A stretch of DNA of 36,203 nucleotides from Alphaproteobacteria bacterium (GTDB taxonomy: Bacteria > Pseudomonadota > Alphaproteobacteria > Micavibrionales > Micavibrionaceae): positions 1 to 36,203 of the forward strand of contig JASBUS010000098.1 in assembly GCA_030147745.1 (NCBI GenBank), written 5' to 3'. The number at the start of each line of letters is the position of its first letter. The first letter of the stretch is position 1. Made by a program: the position numbers and the translations under genes. The notes below the pieces were generated by a model, which had not been told where the DNA came from, did no database searches, and saw only the letters and a list, made by a program, of their open reading frames with translations. Shown one piece after another: positions 1,147-24,492 of the stretch.

Positions 1147-1665
1147 ATGGAAAAAGAGTTTAATAGTGTTGTATCTGGCGTGCCGCCGAAGTCTTTAATT
1201 GCACAGGCGCATGATAAATTTACACGTATGGCATTGACCGCGATTGATCGTGATCATCCTGAGGCTTATAAGGGCTGCTGTCATTCATATACAGCGCATG
1301 TTATGCAGGCGAATTTGGATAAGCTGGGGGATGACGATAAGATTGTCTTGCTCGGCGGTGCAAATACTATTGCGCATTCTATATTGGTTAGTAAAGACGG
1401 TAAAATTCTGGCAGATTCTGAATTCAAGCAAAAGGGCATTGATGTGCAGCTTGATATGCAGGCTGGGCTATATCGTGTTGAGATGATCGAGGGTTCTGGT
1501 CAATATATCAATATGAATGTTGCGTTTAGCGCCACGATAGGCGAATTCAAGCAAGGTTATTTAAAGCCAGTCGAAGAGAAAATGTATGCTAAACGAGCGG
1601 ATTCACTTAAAGAGGAGCGCGAGGCAACAGCGAAAATAGGGGTGCAAGACCCCAATGGCTTTTAA
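1147..1665 (+). CDS. Unknown protein with a possible Cys-His-Asp papain/transglutaminase-like core
   Basis: 172-residue protein I do not recognise. An AAGGA ribosome site precedes the ATG. There is no signal peptide or membrane segment. The middle contains a Cys pair at the start of a predicted helix (C44-C45, GCCHSYTAHVM), then AHSILV with H77 and GKILAD with D90. Cys at a helix start, His opening a strand and Asp on the next strand after a DG turn is how transglutaminase-like and papain-like cysteine hydrolases look, so an enzyme of that fold is conceivable; this is inference from pattern only. The C-terminal third is charged and probably helical. It ends with a 4-base tail-to-tail overlap with the DUF465 gene on the other strand. 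Confidence 0.75.
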   Translation: MEKEFNSVVSGVPPKSLIAQAHDKFTRMALTAIDRDHPEAYKGCCHSYTAHVMQANLDKLGDDDKIVLLGGANTIAHSILVSKDGKILADSEFKQKGIDVQLDMQAGLYRVEMIEGSGQYINMNVAFSATIGEFKQGYLKPVEEKMYAKRADSLKEEREATAKIGVQDPNGF

Positions 1666-1868
1666 GCAATAATATCCGGTAGAAGATCACTTTCCATTTT
1701 CTGGATCATGTCTTTCAAGGCAAGCTTACGCTTTTTCATGCGTGTCATTTGCAAGAAATCCACGGGCTGAGCAGAAGATAGACGCTCGATAATGTCATCA
1801 AGGTCTTTATGTTCATGTTTCAGCTGAGCGAGTTTTTCGCGGAGGATTTCTTCTTCTTCTGGATCCAT
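1662..1868 (-). CDS. DUF465 / YdcH-family small helical protein
   Basis: Short (68 aa) highly charged protein predicted to form a helical hairpin: EEEILREKLAQLKHEHKDLDDIIERL, a short linker, then MKKRKLALKDMIQKME. The LK.EH..LD..I..L...........LKKRKL.LKD.I pattern is the DUF465 (YdcH) family, common in alphaproteobacteria and of unknown function. I chose the ATG at 1868 (MDPEEEE) rather than the longer in-frame start at 1919, because the extra 17 residues fall outside the family and a purine-rich AGAAGAAG precedes this ATG. Its 3' end overlaps the convergent neighbour by 4 bases. Confidence 0.82.
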   Translation of the reverse strand: MDPEEEEILREKLAQLKHEHKDLDDIIERLSSAQPVDFLQMTRMKKRKLALKDMIQKMESDLLPDIIA

Positions 1869-2873: not shown

Positions 2874-2903
2874 ACTATAACGCATATGTTGCAATTATGT
2901 CAA
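2874..2903 (-). promoter_or_regulatory. Candidate sigma-70 promoter for the paralog pair
   Basis: On the minus strand, a perfect TTGACA -35 (plus-strand 2898-2903) is followed after 18 bases by TATAGT (2874-2879) as the -10; a 17-base spacer with TTATAG is the alternative. Transcription would begin near 2866, about 50 bases before the ATG at 2813. Confidence 0.6.
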
Positions 2904-18898: not shown

Positions 18899-20953
18899 AT
18901 GAAGGGCATCACAGCAGATTTAAAGAAACCGTTAGAAAGCCTTATGGATCTATACGATCATCTGACTAATCTGTCGGATATTGATTATTTGCGCGATCAT
19001 AAGATTTCGAATTTTATTTCAGAAAAAGTCCGCGTCGTTGGTGAAATCCGCCGTCTTGCTGATAATACAGATGATGTACAAGCCCTTAATTACTATGCGG
19101 GTTTGATTTTGAACAAAGAACCATTCTTACCACATGATGTTGCAGAAGCTGAGCGTTGTTTGATTAGCGCGGCGGATAAAGGTAGTGCGCTGGCGCAATA
19201 TAACCTAGCGCGCCTATATTCAGGTGAGTTTGCCTATGATTATGATGAAACATCGCATAAAGCGGATGCGGAGCGTTATATTAAAGCGCTTGAGCAGAAT
19301 GATGATATGTATAGCGCATATTTCCTCGCACAATATTATATTAAGAATGAGCGTTATGAAGAAGGCCACGCAAAGTTAGAAGCGGCCGTTGCGGCAAGCG
19401 TGCCAGAAGCATTGGTTTACAAAGCGAAAGCCTTTATGAATGGGCGTTTGCCGGGGGTTGAAAAAGACGGTAAGCAAGCGTTTTCAATGTTTAAGCGTGC
19501 TTATGAGCGCTGTATGGTTGTCGGTGAAGAGCGCCTTGCACAGCCTGATTTAAAATATGAAATTCTGTATCACCTTGGCTGCATGTATATAAATGGTTGG
19601 GGCGTATTGGTGAATGGTTACACAGGACGTTGCTTGATTATGAAGGCGGCCTTGCGTTACCCTGAGGCACGTAATTACTGTGAAACGGTCATGTATTTAT
19701 ACGATTGGTATGAGCCAATGGTGGAAGAGGTCGAGAAGCTTGATGTTGATAGCTTGTTCGAAGGTTCATCCGCAGCATCAGATTTCAGAAAGATTATGCA
19801 GAAGGCCGGCGCTTATGCTAACGGCGAAGATGGCGAAGAATATGACATGGAAATTTTAATTCCTGATCATGATGCGTCTGAAGACGACGATCATAATGGT
19901 GATGATGACGATGGTTCTGAATTTGACCCGATGTCTATTTTCACGGGTGATAACCCGTCAAAAGTCAAAGTCTATAATTATGATGGCCAAGATGATTATT
20001 TCAACCGCGATCATAAGGGTGATAATAGTTTTGAAAATATTGAGCGCCGCGCACCTAAGATACGCATTAAGGCGTTAGATAAGGCTGAAATTGACCGTAT
20101 TTTTGAACCTTTAGATAATATGATTGGCCTCGGTCACATTAAGAAAGAAGTGCGCTCAATTGTGAATTTGGTGCAGTTAAATGCTATGCGAGAAACGCAG
20201 GGCTTACCGCGTATTCCAGTTAGCACGCATATGGTGTTTACTGGCCCGCCAGGTACGGGTAAAACATCTGTTGCGCGTTTGGTCGGTGATATCCTTTGGG
20301 AAATTGGCTATCTGAATTCAGGTCACGTGGTTGAAGTCGCGCGTCAGGATTTGGTCGGTGAATATATCGGCTGGACCGCGAATATGACGCAAAAGGCGCT
20401 TGATGCGGCCAATGGCGGTATTTTCTTCCTTGATGAAGCTTATACGCTAAGCAATAGTGATAGCGGCCGCGATTTTGGTTACGAAGCGATTGATGTGATC
20501 AATAAATATATGGAAGACAATCGTGACAATATGGTTGTGATTGTTGCTGGCTATAAAGATGAAATGGCAAATTTCTTAACAGCAAATCCAGGTTTGAAAT
20601 CTCGCTTTAAACATGAGCTTGAGTTTAAGCCTATGGATCATGAGCAGCTGCTTGCTGTTTATAAATCATTTTGTCATCAATATAAGATGGTCTTATCGGA
20701 TGATGCAGAAGCGCTACTACAAAAAGTGTTGAAGCGTGCTGACCGTCAGGGTGAATTCCATCGTTCAAATGCACGCGGAGTGCGTGATATGTTTGAACGT
20801 ATGCTGGTTAAGCAGGCTGAACGTCTTGCCGAGAATTTTGCTGATCTGACAGAAGCTGATCTGGTCACGATTGAAAAGCAGGATATTTTTATGCCTGAAA
20901 CATTCAATGACGGGAATATCACATATTTGCCGAATAAGAAGAAAGACGATTAA
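18899..20953 (+). CDS. AAA+ ATPase of the CbxX/CfqX type with N-terminal Sel1/TPR-like region
   Basis: 684 residues in three parts. Residues about 60-280 are helical repeats with Sel1/TPR character (AERCLISAADKGSALAQYNLARLYSGEF, YFLAQYYIKNERYEEGHAKLEAAV, LYHLGCMYINGWGVLVNGYTG). Residues about 310-345 are an acidic tract (ASEDDDHNGDDDDGSEFD). Residues about 385-675 are a CbxX-type AAA+ module: GLGHIKKEVRSIVNLV, Walker A GPPGTGKT (449-456), Walker B IFFLDEAY (508-515), AGY sensor region, and arginine finger NPGLKSRF (R569). CbbX, SpoVK and the type VII secretion ATPase EccA share this module, and EccA also has N-terminal TPRs. No Rubisco or type VII genes are near, so the substrate is unknown; a remodelling ATPase with a protein-binding front end is the safe call. 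An AGGAGAG ribosome site precedes the ATG. Confidence 0.88.
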   Translation: MKGITADLKKPLESLMDLYDHLTNLSDIDYLRDHKISNFISEKVRVVGEIRRLADNTDDVQALNYYAGLILNKEPFLPHDVAEAERCLISAADKGSALAQYNLARLYSGEFAYDYDETSHKADAERYIKALEQNDDMYSAYFLAQYYIKNERYEEGHAKLEAAVAASVPEALVYKAKAFMNGRLPGVEKDGKQAFSMFKRAYERCMVVGEERLAQPDLKYEILYHLGCMYINGWGVLVNGYTGRCLIMKAALRYPEARNYCETVMYLYDWYEPMVEEVEKLDVDSLFEGSSAASDFRKIMQKAGAYANGEDGEEYDMEILIPDHDASEDDDHNGDDDDGSEFDPMSIFTGDNPSKVKVYNYDGQDDYFNRDHKGDNSFENIERRAPKIRIKALDKAEIDRIFEPLDNMIGLGHIKKEVRSIVNLVQLNAMRETQGLPRIPVSTHMVFTGPPGTGKTSVARLVGDILWEIGYLNSGHVVEVARQDLVGEYIGWTANMTQKALDAANGGIFFLDEAYTLSNSDSGRDFGYEAIDVINKYMEDNRDNMVVIVAGYKDEMANFLTANPGLKSRFKHELEFKPMDHEQLLAVYKSFCHQYKMVLSDDAEALLQKVLKRADRQGEFHRSNARGVRDMFERMLVKQAERLAENFADLTEADLVTIEKQDIFMPETFNDGNITYLPNKKKDD

Positions 20954-20962
20954 GGCAGGATA

Positions 20963-21304
20963 TTAAACAATCAGTTTAATGCCGAGCTTTTCGAGTTTCG
21001 CCATATTCGCGGCTTTCATTTCCGTGATGCGCGTATTGATGTCGGCAGGCACGTCATTGACCCAATATTTTTTGCCATCTTTCATATAAATGGTTGAGCC
21101 TGATACGTATTTTTTCTTACCATTTACCGTGCGATGGATATTGTCGTTATCGTGATATTTATCAATATCGTTAAAATCAATGATGAGTGTGCGCTCTGGG
21201 ATATATTCGCCGCTACCGCTTTCTTTGTAATTAATCGTGGTCAGCTGAATGCTCGTATTAAAAATACTCGACAGAATTTTCAGCATTTCAGGTCTGGATT
21301 GCAT
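20963..21304 (-). CDS. Unknown protein Z, single FlbD/SwrD-like domain
   Basis: 113 residues, soluble. Residues about 38-97 form strand-strand-strand-helix with a GSTIYMKDGKKYWVNDVPADINTRI core: an 'I.h.DGKk..V.d.p.di...I' pattern like the small FlbD/SwrD family. NDVPADINTRI also matches TEFPADLTQLY in the second repeat of the gene upstream, so all three genes of this run look related. It is last in a co-directional run motA-motB-X-Y-Z, 8 bases after Y, and its 3' end faces the AAA+ gene. Function unknown; the family match is by eye. Confidence 0.7.
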   Translation of the reverse strand: MQSRPEMLKILSSIFNTSIQLTTINYKESGSGEYIPERTLIIDFNDIDKYHDNDNIHRTVNGKKKYVSGSTIYMKDGKKYWVNDVPADINTRITEMKAANMAKLEKLGIKLIV

Positions 21305-21312
21305 AGTATGCC

Positions 21313-21942
21313 CTATAGATTCAACTGTCTTAGAAGTTTTACGGCTTTAACGCACATTTCTTGTTCGGCAGTGTCGTAAAGCTGCGTTAGGTCGGCAGGG
21401 AATTCTGTGACATATAATTTGCGCGTGCCAAAACAGCCATCATTTTTTAACAGCACATAGCTTTGTGCAAATGGCACAGGGTAATATTGAGTGGTTAATG
21501 TATATGGGCCATGTCCAACGATTTGGTCATAGAAGACATTTATAGGTTCAGATGTTTTGCCTGCGAGTGGTTGGTCTGTGACGTTTAAAGTAATTGTTGC
21601 ACGCAGGAAATCCATGCGGATTTTGCCCATCTCTTTTAATTCCTGTGGTTTGCGCGCGGCGATATTGGCTTCGGCTTGTTCAAACATCGTCTTTAATGTA
21701 TCGATATCATGCGCGGTATAAAAGCTTTTACTCGCAAATAGGCCGTCTTCGGTTTTATTCCGTAGGGTGATTATGCTTTGCGCGGCGGTACAGCCATCAT
21801 GAGGTGGGCGCGGCGCAGTGAAGGCGGCATAGCTTACAATTTGGTCATAGAAAAAATTACGTGGTTCTATCTTGCTGCCAAATTGATCAACGCTATCAAA
21901 AGTGATGCTTTCACGGATAATGTCGCGGCGGTCTTCATCCAT
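21313..21942 (-). CDS. Unknown protein Y with two internal repeats
   Basis: 209 residues, no signal peptide or membrane segment. The chain is an internal duplication. Residues about 12-91 and 116-193 share (T)IT(F/L), EPxN(F/V)FYDQIV (FYDQIV at 31-36 and 137-142), AQS (54-56 and 159-161), L(R/K)N, a glycine turn, K(S/L)(F/Y)xT, and a closing helix ending in (Q/T)AE. I start at the ATG at 21942 (MDEDRRD), one base after the stop of the upstream gene and 9 bases after AGGGG, rather than at an in-frame TTG three codons earlier. It is middle gene of X-Y-Z, and the repeat looks like a longer version of the domain in X and Z. Confidence 0.75.
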   Translation of the reverse strand: MDEDRRDIIRESITFDSVDQFGSKIEPRNFFYDQIVSYAAFTAPRPPHDGCTAAQSIITLRNKTEDGLFASKSFYTAHDIDTLKTMFEQAEANIAARKPQELKEMGKIRMDFLRATITLNVTDQPLAGKTSEPINVFYDQIVGHGPYTLTTQYYPVPFAQSYVLLKNDGCFGTRKLYVTEFPADLTQLYDTAEQEMCVKAVKLLRQLNL

Positions 21943-21943
21943 A

Positions 21944-22453
21944 TTACGCAACCCCTAAACAGCATTGTCGGATGGTATCTAGGCGCTGCTTTTGCGCGAT
22001 CGTGATACTCTTTATAATCTCGTCCATTGGCGTCGTACTATGAATTTTATCGCCATCCATGGTTTTGATAACGCTTTTATAATTTTTCGTTTGATTATAG
22101 AGCTGTTCAATATAGTCAATCGAGATGTACGCACAGTGGTTTTCTGTGGTCTTGTATTTAGCATATGCATTAAGTAGATCTGCTGTTGGTTGTATAGGAA
22201 GGCGCGTTTTATATAAATCTTTTAGTGCATTGATCTGTGCGTTTTGAATTAGCTCTATTACTTGCTCCGGTGTTTCGCGGCCTGTCCACCACCATTCCTT
22301 GTTCATAAATATTTTAACGCGATTCAATGGCGTAGTATCGTATTGATCTTCAGTACATATGCCATGTATATGTGCGATTGTATCTGTTGCAATATGTGTT
22401 TCATAGCCTTCCACATCAGTGGCGGTGATAAATGATTTTGTCAAAAATGACAT
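21944..22453 (-). CDS. Unknown protein X, two FlbD/SwrD-like repeats
   Basis: 169 residues. Two copies of a roughly 60-residue unit are visible: residues 10-73 (ATDVEGYETHIATDTIAHIHG..., RVKIFMNKEWWW, ending TPEQVIELIQNAQ) and 98-154 (TTENHCAYISIDYIEQLYN..., KSVIKTMDGDKI, ending TPMDEIIKSITIAQ). Strand, 'd.I..I', strand with a turn, then a helix opening with TPe.vI is the FlbD/SwrD pattern. The start is ATG 22453, with ACAGGGG upstream; the open frame extends to a TTG at 22498, which is less likely. It lies 69 bases after motB on the same strand, so it could be part of the motA-motB transcript or use its own promoter. Function not known. Confidence 0.72.
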   Translation of the reverse strand: MSFLTKSFITATDVEGYETHIATDTIAHIHGICTEDQYDTTPLNRVKIFMNKEWWWTGRETPEQVIELIQNAQINALKDLYKTRLPIQPTADLLNAYAKYKTTENHCAYISIDYIEQLYNQTKNYKSVIKTMDGDKIHSTTPMDEIIKSITIAQKQRLDTIRQCCLGVA

Positions 22454-22481: not shown

Positions 22482-22522
22482 ATGGGTATAACTACCAACT
22501 CTTTTGTCTTATGTCAACTCAA

Positions 22523-23554
22523 TTATGGGAATACGACATCGCCTTGTGATGGACGGTAACCAGGGTCAGGTAAATCGTCAGGGGAGAAGAGGCTGCCATC
22601 ATCTGTATAGGCACCATCACGAACACTTTCGTCGATTTCTTCTTCTTCGTCACCTGTTGGGACGAATTCTTCATTCAATAGCAAAATACTAATGCGTCGG
22701 TTGCGGGCGTCGGTTGGGTCTTCAGGTGTGAATGGCTCTGTTGCGCCTTTACCCATGACGTTTTTGACTTTGTCTTCTGGATATCCGCTTTGCTGGAGGA
22801 CGCGGCGCGTTGCATTGGCGCGGTCAGCTGACAGTTCCCAGTTTGAATAATCTTTACGAGATGTATATGGGGTGGCATCAGTGTGCCCCCGTACGGATAA
22901 GTCATTCGGCATATCCGCAATAACGGATGAAATAAGGCCGATGACTTCTTCGGTTTTGCCAAACATGCGGGCGCTTCCGCTTGGGAACATCGCTTCGCCT
23001 TCTTGGTCGACGATCTGTATTTCCAAGCCTTCAGGCGTAACTTTAATCAAGACGTTTTCAGACAGCTTGCTCAGTTTCGGGTCAGATTTAATCGCTTGTT
23101 CGATTTCTTTCTTTTTCTTATCGAATTTTTCTTTCTGACGGCGTTCAAATTCTTTTTTTAGTTCTTCATCTTTGGCTGTCTTTAGATTGGCTTTTTTGTT
23201 GTCATCACCTTCGCCTGTTTTTGGGCGGGTTGGGGATGGTGGCTGCATCGCTGTAAGTGGATTGTTATCATAAGCGCGCGCACCCTCTGGTGAGTTTGTG
23301 CGGCCGGCCAATGCACCTGCCGCGCCACCTTCGGCAGCAGAAACTTGCGGCGCTGTGGGGTCATTGAAGAAGGCCGAGAGCTTGGACTTCATCTCATCCG
23401 TTGTCACGTTCAATAACCATAGCAAAAGGAAGAAGGCCATCATCGCAGTTACGAAGTCGGCATAAGCAACCTTCCACGCGCCGCCATGGTGGCCGCCCGC
23501 GTATTTTTTCACCTTCTTGATGATAATCGGTTGTTTTTCTTCGCTATCTGCCAT
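22523..23554 (-). CDS. motB: Flagellar motor stator protein MotB
   Basis: Anchors the stator to peptidoglycan and carries the ion-binding aspartate. 343 residues. A short cytoplasmic tail is followed by one membrane helix, YADFVTAMMAFFLLLWLL, whose D33 is the expected proton-binding residue. A long charged linker follows (residues about 65-150, rich in K, E and P), then an OmpA-like peptidoglycan-binding domain with LSVRGHTDATPYTSRKDYSNWELSADRANATRRVL. The C-terminus is acidic. It is preceded by motA with a 50-base gap and followed on the same strand by X-Y-Z. The absence of a polar sodium-type signature makes a proton motor more likely, but this is inference. Confidence 0.94.
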   Translation of the reverse strand: MADSEEKQPIIIKKVKKYAGGHHGGAWKVAYADFVTAMMAFFLLLWLLNVTTDEMKSKLSAFFNDPTAPQVSAAEGGAAGALAGRTNSPEGARAYDNNPLTAMQPPSPTRPKTGEGDDNKKANLKTAKDEELKKEFERRQKEKFDKKKKEIEQAIKSDPKLSKLSENVLIKVTPEGLEIQIVDQEGEAMFPSGSARMFGKTEEVIGLISSVIADMPNDLSVRGHTDATPYTSRKDYSNWELSADRANATRRVLQQSGYPEDKVKNVMGKGATEPFTPEDPTDARNRRISILLLNEEFVPTGDEEEEIDESVRDGAYTDDGSLFSPDDLPDPGYRPSQGDVVFP

Positions 23555-23604: not shown

Positions 23605-24492
23605 TCACGATGGCGCTGGAATTTCGTTAAGAATCTCTTCTAGTTCTTGGAATGTCGGCTGAACATCATGCGGCAAGAACTTACGTGCGAATTCAACGGC
23701 GACCTGCGGCGCAGCGCCATTCAAGTAAGCAATCATGCCAACGCGAATGGCTTTATAATACATGACTTCAGTTTCGGCGCGCGCGGTCATCGCGCTCGCA
23801 ATCGGGCCGACGAAGCCATAGGCGACCCAAACCCCTAGGAATGTCCCCACGAGCGCGCCACCGATCATCTTACCCAAAACTTCAGGTGGTTCGGAAATCG
23901 ATGACATGGTTTTAATAATACCGAGAACGGCGGCAACAATACCCAAAGCAGGAATACCATCCGCCATGTGCTGCACGGCATGGCCAGGATGGGCGTAGTG
24001 ATGCTGAAGGGTTTCAATCTCTTCATCCATCAAGGCTTCAATTTCATGTGGGTTTTCATTGCCAAGTGAAATGATACGTAAGTAATCACAAAGGAAGACA
24101 ATCGCATGGTGGTTGTGTTGGAAGCTTGGGAAGTTAGCGAAGAGAGAGCTTTCTTCTGGGTTTTCAATATGTGTTTCAAGCGCTAGCCAGCCTTTAGTAC
24201 GCGCGAGCTTAAATACGCTGAATAGCATGCTAAGCATATCGATATAGTCGGCTTTTGAATAAGCGCTTGGTTTTGCGAGGGCTTTAAACGAACTTAATGT
24301 GTTCTTTACGACCTCAGGTGAGTTCGCAACTAAGAAAGCGGCGATCGCACAACCAAGAATAATGATGACCTCACCAGGCATTGCCGGAAGGATAAGTCCT
24401 GTAAGGAGTTTTATTGTTTTGTCGACACCTGCGGCGACCATTAAGCCACCAATAGTACACGCAAAAACCAAAAATAGGCCAATAAACTTCAT
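23605..24492 (-). CDS. motA: Flagellar motor stator protein MotA
   Basis: Ion-channel subunit of the flagellar stator; pairs with MotB in a 5:2 complex and pushes on FliG. 295 residues with four membrane helices (first at about 3-22, second at about 33-57, last two within about 190-250). The large cytoplasmic loop between helices 2 and 3 holds YIDMLSMLFSVFKLARTKGWLALETHIENPEES and DYLRIISLGNENPHEIEALMDEEIE. Helix 3 and its lead-in read HAVQHMADGIPALGIVAAVLGIIKTM, as in MotA rather than TolQ/ExbB. It starts the run motA-motB-X-Y-Z and is divergent from the MarR regulator gene. Confidence 0.94.
   Translation of the reverse strand: MKFIGLFLVFACTIGGLMVAAGVDKTIKLLTGLILPAMPGEVIIILGCAIAAFLVANSPEVVKNTLSSFKALAKPSAYSKADYIDMLSMLFSVFKLARTKGWLALETHIENPEESSLFANFPSFQHNHHAIVFLCDYLRIISLGNENPHEIEALMDEEIETLQHHYAHPGHAVQHMADGIPALGIVAAVLGIIKTMSSISEPPEVLGKMIGGALVGTFLGVWVAYGFVGPIASAMTARAETEVMYYKAIRVGMIAYLNGAAPQVAVEFARKFLPHDVQPTFQELEEILNEIPAPS

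Follow-up and report, generated by a model that had tools for sequence, protein, structure and literature searches.

Directly downstream of motA-motB in a 36,203-nucleotide contig of an alphaproteobacterium of the family Micavibrionaceae (assembly GCA_030147745.1, contig JASBUS010000098.1, positions 1 to 36,203; hereafter the window), three small genes, here named X, Y, and Z, encode proteins composed of one or two related units. An original prediction, made from the window sequence, viewed them as derivatives of an FlbD/SwrD-like domain and as possible accessory proteins of the flagellar stator. With moderate confidence, a different reading is proposed here: X, Y, and Z would belong to a family of small domains that is restricted to the genus, is expanding, and probably binds proteins, and would not be a part of the motor. 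Each family protein appears to consist of a domain of approximately 80–120 residues, present once or twice, with a predicted layout of strands, a variable insert, a further pair of strands, and a helix that typically has an R-L/V-x-I-like tail at its end. On sequence comparison, X and Z can be placed firmly in one domain family, and Y is probably a member of the same family.

All three genes are located on the minus strand. Gene X (21944..22453, 169 amino acids) comprises units X1 (22190..22453) and X2 (21947..22189), gene Y (21313..21942, 209 amino acids) the longer units Y1 (21622..21927) and Y2 (21316..21621), and gene Z (20963..21304, 113 amino acids) a single unit; X and Y have no Pfam family. 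The order on this strand is motA-motB-X-Y-Z, and the coordinates agree with the original description of three genes running in one direction directly after motA-motB, with gaps of 1 base (X-Y) and 8 bases (Y-Z). The motifs named in that description (TPEQVI, TPMDEI, FPADL, and VPADI) are all present in the translations.

The internal repeat is clearest in Y, whose sequence is an unmistakable duplication: its halves align with a local score of 114 (99th percentile of 500 shuffles, 39), and Y1 and Y2 match at 97% over 94 columns in profile-profile comparison. For X, the halves of the window sequence alone give no significant repeat (score 25, p = 0.44), and the orthologue in a second genome of the genus does (p = 0.002). 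Three genomes of the genus are referred to below, the window's own (G000) and two others (G001, the source of this orthologue, and G002). When profiles of X1 and X2 are compared with hhalign, the match is 85% across 73 columns, and reversed controls stay under 0.3%. The predicted unit counts (two in X, two longer ones in Y, and one in Z) were therefore recovered, by sequence for Y and by profile comparison for X.

Membership of X and Z in one domain family is shown by a core hidden Markov model (HMM) built from eight paralogous units with X, Y, and Z left out; array-only, combined, and X-containing HMMs were used as well. With the core HMM, Z scores 21.2 bits (maximum of 197 shuffles, 7.1) and stays at 13.5–21.2 bits under the other HMMs. 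X1 scores 15.1–28.8 bits across species, from the window unit (15.1 bits, shuffle maximum 7.7) to its G001 orthologue (28.8), and X2 scores 11.2–17.6 bits, the window unit being the lowest; shuffle maxima for X1, X2, and Z under this HMM are 7.1–11.2 bits. Both X and Z thus match a profile that contains none of the three proteins, X2 of the window being clear with the core HMM alone. In profile-profile comparisons, the core and array sets of paralogues match each other at 98%, and the family matches X at 97% and Z at 87% over 99 columns, with reversed controls of at most 0.3%.

The same domain occurs elsewhere in these genomes. The X profile finds matches beyond the motAB locus in G000, G001, and G002 alike, and an 11-unit profile adds more. 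In G000, 10 family genes are present at five loci: X/Y/Z and, designated by their contigs (C), C58 (101 amino acids), C85 (96 amino acids), the tandem array C64a-d, and C9, a diverged two-unit gene of 142 amino acids that scores 18.5 bits on the paralogue HMM (highest score among 499 shuffles, 10.0). Seven intact family genes were found in G001, where the paralogues are C14 (102 amino acids), C10 (131 amino acids), and the array C11a-c, and 10 in G002, where they include C5a, C5b, the two-unit C21 (211 amino acids), and the C33 array of five. Members d, e, and f of C33 are weak, with core HMM scores of 6.6, 8.4, and 8.1 bits and shuffle maxima of 6.9, 4.0, and 6.6. The tandem arrays of the three species hold 4, 3, and 5 genes, respectively. 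In G001, a second copy of C14, located beside the intact one (L061, about 1504–1803, minus strand), is interrupted by an in-frame TAA; the corresponding locus has a single gene in G000 and a pair in G002. The unequal gene numbers of orthologous arrays, the interrupted copy, and the occurrence of Z in a single species suggest that duplication and loss are still under way. Beside the C10 member of G001, two adjacent genes of 224 and 208 amino acids (L087:1921-3238) look mutually alike by eye.

Of the five G000 loci, one is flagellar, unlike what would be expected of FlbD genes. At the other four, the immediate neighbours are not flagellar according to Pfam. They encode inositol monophosphatase (Inositol_P), an OmpA-domain protein (OmpA), a thioredoxin-like protein (Thioredoxin_4), SMC (SMC), N-formylglutamate amidohydrolase (FGase, identified in the G001 counterpart), a PBP-like protein (PBP_like_2), glutamate dehydrogenase (GDH), an AMP-binding enzyme (AMP-binding), ETF alpha (ETF_alpha), and a pentapeptide protein (Pentapeptide).

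With regard to distribution, single-sequence searches of 58 relatives, the window's genome included, recovered X in three, all of the genus, Y in four, the fourth being a weak match outside the genus (G052, E = 0.008), and Z in the window's genome alone, whereas motB was found in 55; X was missing from the results of 52 of these 55 motB-bearing relatives. A profile search with Y matched 3 of 104 genomes of the family Micavibrionaceae, and among 142 genomes of the order, profiles recovered X from three and Y from four, one Y match (G108, E = 0.003) being weak as before. A search of genome contigs with Y returned one locus, in the metagenome-assembled genome ARS11 (contig NZDE01000013). The unit profile matched 9 of 142 genomes outside the genus at E values up to 0.1 (best 0.002). 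Six of these weak matches were read (L069–L073 and L077, not L074–L076), and five were rejected as relatives, L069 and L071 being coiled-coil-like by eye and L070, L072, and L073 having no discernible family domain. The sixth (L077:1333-1599, in G121; E = 0.08 to the unit profile) is an 88-residue open reading frame (ORF) between rplV-like and rpsC-like genes, as judged by eye; its strand pattern is similar, and its helix starts with ETPEEI. A class-level search gave one weak match (G311, E = 0.005). No match was found in phage records, and no confirmed relative among viral contigs searched with Y and Z. On these searches, which extended to the order and class levels, the family is convincingly found in this genus only; for X-Y, absence outside the genus refers to single-sequence and profile searches, not to inspection of every motB locus. 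The titles and abstract openings covered by a literature search contain no description of such a family.

The motAB locus itself differs among the three family-bearing genomes, all of which carry motAB. In G001 the order is motA-motB-X-Y followed by a gene for an AAA+ protein, without Z. In G002, motA-motB-X and Y-AAA+ occupy different contig ends, X and Y each being interrupted by a run of N, and there is no Z between Y and the AAA+ gene; adjacency of X and Y is inferred in this genome because the final bases past X resemble the start of Y.

X and Y have diverged far more than their motor neighbour, with identities between two species of 47% for X and 64% for Y versus 90% for MotB. The proportion of nonsynonymous differences (pN) is below that of synonymous differences (pS) for X, Y, and MotB, and the synonymous sites of X and Y are near saturation. 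In a unit tree whose deeper branches are unresolved and which has several long branches, units of different species group by type (support given as ultrafast bootstrap/SH-like approximate likelihood ratio test): X1 of three species (91/75), X2 of two (100/99), Y1 of two (99/96), and Y2 of three (95/80). The duplications therefore predate, at the least, the divergence of G000 from G001. In the proposed history, tandem duplication, dispersal, and loss have spread the domain within one alphaproteobacterial genus, as the comparisons show for X, Z, and the paralogues and make probable for Y.

A promoter-like site (22493..22517, minus strand) is located between motB and X, consisting of TTGACATAA directly after the motB stop and TA 14 bases on. 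The TTGACATAA before X is invariant in all three species, and the bases beyond it vary. X-Y(-Z) is one of the five family loci of G000 and has a promoter-like site of its own in front of it. In the 130 bases upstream of the gene, TTGAC[AT] occurs for 10 of the 12 genes that open a family locus and for 0 of the 12 later genes, as counted by us with the C9 gene left out. Of the 26 other ORFs that head operons in the window or in its G001 counterpart (G001 X removed), 3 have this motif, a control based on crude ORF calling, a slightly different stretch, and two partly orthologous sources.

The form is not confined to this family. TTGACATAA-N13-15-TA has 65 sites in G000 versus 4 for the reversed pattern, 76 (control 11) and 59 (control 5) in the other two species, and 1 to 81 in the remaining 35 of 38 relatives. 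Judging from these counts, it is a promoter-like form of the order; the 65 sites and the order-wide occurrence rule out TTGACATAA as a regulon mark of this family alone. From the 65 sites, 64 downstream ORFs were called (the C58 site, which heads a family member, being left out), and 62 were scanned against Pfam, excluding ORFs of 51 and 42 amino acids. At E values of 1e-5 or better, 18 pairs of a Pfam family and a member protein were obtained in 17 Pfam families, so that at most 18 of the 62 proteins, and probably 12 after merging of related families, have a Pfam family; these exceptions include two isochorismatase, ankyrin, DUF4116, and GNAT proteins. By comparison, at least 26 of the 32 window genes besides X, Y, and Z have a Pfam family and five have none by our tally, a comparison drawn with window genes and not with other strong promoters. 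The TTGACATAA form thus heads mostly proteins without a Pfam family, X included. A second site of this type in the window (2878-2903, minus strand) heads the minus-strand genes 2427-2813 and 1976-2407, which encode proteins of 128 and 143 amino acids with no Pfam match at E = 0.001 and with the ends PIVI and AVII.

Several points weigh against the reading of X, Y, and Z as one non-motor binding family. Some concern the domain itself. Of the three HMMs from which X was left out, two do not recognise the X2 unit of the window (array-only, 3.5 bits; combined, 7.5 bits; both below the shuffle maxima). The Y units score 1.5–8.5 bits with the core HMM, close to shuffles, Y is not retrieved by the pooled unit profiles in whole-genome searches even from its own genome, and Y reaches just 71% over 86 columns against the family when X and Z are in the profile. 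Others concern the locus. X follows motB in all three species, as a functional link would also predict; the neighbour check covered immediate genes, so that a flagellar gene a few kb off would escape it; and a consensus promoter scan omits the X site, which has a poor second hexamer, and shows no excess of promoters in this region (9 versus 8.4 in shuffles), read-through from motAB into X-Y-Z being possible. Finally, the putative binding mechanism is deduced from size, fold class, and the absence of other signals.

The difficulties with Y allow a separate explanation, namely that Y is an unrelated protein whose likeness to the X/Z domain is limited to the order of strands and helix. Besides its near-chance scores on the paralogue HMMs (at best 5.4–10.8 bits, with the X-containing HMM; shuffle maxima 3.0–10.6) and its absence from the pooled-profile results, the lack of signal in Y against FlbD (0.3%) is in keeping with this explanation. 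It is nevertheless rather unlikely, because the match over 86 columns is in register with reversed controls below 0.1%, the array set alone matches Y at 21% over 90 columns and the core set alone at 49% over 28, and a start of the type D-x-L-R-A-x-I-T is common to Y and the X/Z-type units in the alignment, as judged by eye. The proposal of one domain in three genes accordingly stands for X and Z on profile and HMM evidence and is probable for Y.

The other main question is whether the family belongs to the motor. A motor role, in line with the original suggestion of a new kind of multi-domain stator accessory protein, would make X, Y, and Z descendants of FlbD/SwrD that tune MotAB output. FlbD is a small protein with a strand-strand-strand-strand-helix layout. 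The family units resemble FlbD/SwrD in such a small layout, in an 'I..I' second strand, in a helix opened by an E-x-x-E-x-I/V motif, and in being encoded beside motAB. They differ in carrying inserts and a long C-terminal helix, in occurring in pairs and arrays mostly away from motAB, and in being convincingly found in one genus, with no unit passing the Pfam cut-off. The analogy is reasonable because flbD is directly upstream of motA-motB in four of five annotated records (Thermomicrobium, Granulicella, Arthrobacter, and Curtobacterium); in the fifth, Bacillus velezensis, it is located before fliL, as the original prediction had it. According to one study (PMC9195833), SwrD raises motor power under swarming conditions.

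Membership in FlbD/SwrD was not borne out by library searches. Z matches Pfam FlbD (PF06289) at 15.3 bits (E = 0.015), below the cut-off of 24.7 bits, and X and Y do not match it. Among 26 units scanned against Pfam, FlbD was matched by two, the best at E = 0.015 and under the cut-off; it is the sole Pfam family matching more than one unit, every other family matching a single unit, and the lowest E value belongs to another family (DUF5758, one unit, E = 0.003). No FlbD above the Pfam cut-off was found in 38 relatives, the window's genome included. X, Y, and Z gave nothing above cut-off in Pfam or NCBIfam, and their best PHROGs match was E = 0.007 (X); for the 26 units, the best values were E = 0.004 in PHROGs and 0.018 in NCBIfam. 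Among PDB sequences, the best match of X was an unrelated MukF chain (E = 0.044), that of Y had an E value of 0.43, and Z had none.

Profile comparisons with FlbD relied on a profile of seven rows from seven records, two rows being pieces of 37–38 residues from unannotated records. A first comparison gave 30% over 50 columns for X2, 30% over 31 for Z, 5% for X1, and less than 0.5% for Y; a second gave 2.5% for the core set (reversed up to 1.0%), 3.6% for the array, 7% for X, 16% for Z, 21% for core plus array, and 0.3% for Y. When core, array, X, and Z were pooled, the value rose to 64% over 37 columns. Kinship to FlbD/SwrD is therefore suggested by a weak remote signal that varies with the units pooled, and the domain fold may be remotely akin to FlbD/SwrD.

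These signals, the Pfam match of Z, the position of flbD beside motAB, and the report on SwrD speak for a stator role, as do the position of X immediately behind motB in all three species, with Y directly after X in two and at a matching contig end in the third, and a viral fold search whose eighth-ranked match is a phage 'Flagellar and Swarming motility protein' (probability 0.75, E = 0.57). We nonetheless judge a stator role improbable: paralogues are present at four loci without flagellar immediate neighbours, no convincing X or Y turned up outside the genus although motB was found in 55 of 58 relatives, a promoter-like site stands between motB and X, the divergence of X and Y far outpaces that of MotB, and Y has no FlbD signal. 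Of the expectation that X-Y-Z stays beside motAB, the part concerning X agrees with all three species; Z is found in one species, and the paralogues are elsewhere. The place of the cluster after motB would reflect ancestry within the genus, not a role in the motor.

Structure modelling, which covered Y alone among the three proteins, gives a view of the fold. The AlphaFold model of whole Y from four rows had a mean predicted local distance difference test (pLDDT) value of 39 and was not used. For the Y2 unit, AlphaFold2 with seven repeat rows gave a pLDDT of 78.8 and a predicted template modelling score (pTM) of 0.66, with strands at 8-15, 24-31, 33-41, 51-60, and 63-71 and a helix at 75-99, FPADL forming the start of this C-terminal helix. 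Five strands and a C-terminal helix resemble the layout of strands and helix originally described. Foldseek found nothing significant for the Y unit in the PDB (best E = 0.35, a PH domain) or among viral models (best E = 0.25). With VIA-align, the top rows were mostly PH-like, all with Z scores below 5 (best 4.8 over 74 residues, 3.6 Å). PH-domain-like folds (for example, 3tvv, 1h10, and 3qwm) likewise have several strands closed by a C-terminal helix, but Z scores below 5 are in the range of common arrangements and no sequence match accompanies them.

In the preferred reading of the family as small non-motor domains, the most likely mechanism would be binding of proteins in the cytosol, because no signal stretch, membrane stretch, or catalytic motif was seen in the domains by eye. 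Single-unit members would serve as monovalent adaptors or inhibitors and two-unit members (X, Y, and the C9 gene product) would be bivalent, with binding surfaces that may change quickly. A related possibility is that the family forms an immunity, antitoxin-like, or other interaction repertoire that would guard against or target changing partners, its arrays gaining and losing members. Tandem arrays, gene gain and loss, the interrupted copy, high divergence, and a promoter form that otherwise heads mostly Pfam-less proteins are compatible with this. We consider it unlikely, as no toxin, secretion, or defence genes were recognised beside the loci (PADLOC and secretion families were not searched) and pN is lower than pS, so that positive selection is not indicated.

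The remaining neighbours of the cluster have recognisable families. Gene motB (22523..23554, minus strand) encodes MotB_plug and OmpA domains and motA (23605..24492, minus strand) MotA_N and MotA_ExbB. On the other side, a plus-strand gene (18899..20953) convergent with the cluster encodes the AAA+ protein (Pfam AAA and AAA_lid_6), whose N-terminal part has weak Pfam matches to TPR_16 and Sel1 (E = 0.06 and 0.5). This gene adjoins the cluster in all three species, being convergent with Z or Y.

As a family of small, probably protein-binding domains, X, Y, Z, and their paralogues resemble lineage-specific paralogous (ORFan) families in being genus-limited, small, fast-diverging, tandem-duplicated, and dispersed; they differ in that one domain, in one- and two-unit architectures, was traced across five loci of one genome. 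A bolder extension, to which we give little credence at present, is that the genus invented a modular binding domain (approximately 7–10 genes per genome) co-expressed with dozens of Pfam-less proteins from one promoter form, as a lineage-specific interaction repertoire toward prey, host, or phage, with the motAB-linked X-Y as the member touching motility. The family shows that a position beside motAB can mislead, since the same domain is found at four other loci of the genome, and it adds a domain family for which Pfam, NCBIfam, and PHROGs gave no convincing match. If the resemblance to FlbD is true, it would show that a small motor-associated domain has been adopted for other uses. In addition, the TTGACATAA promoter form may offer a handle for finding further genus-specific genes in a little-known order.

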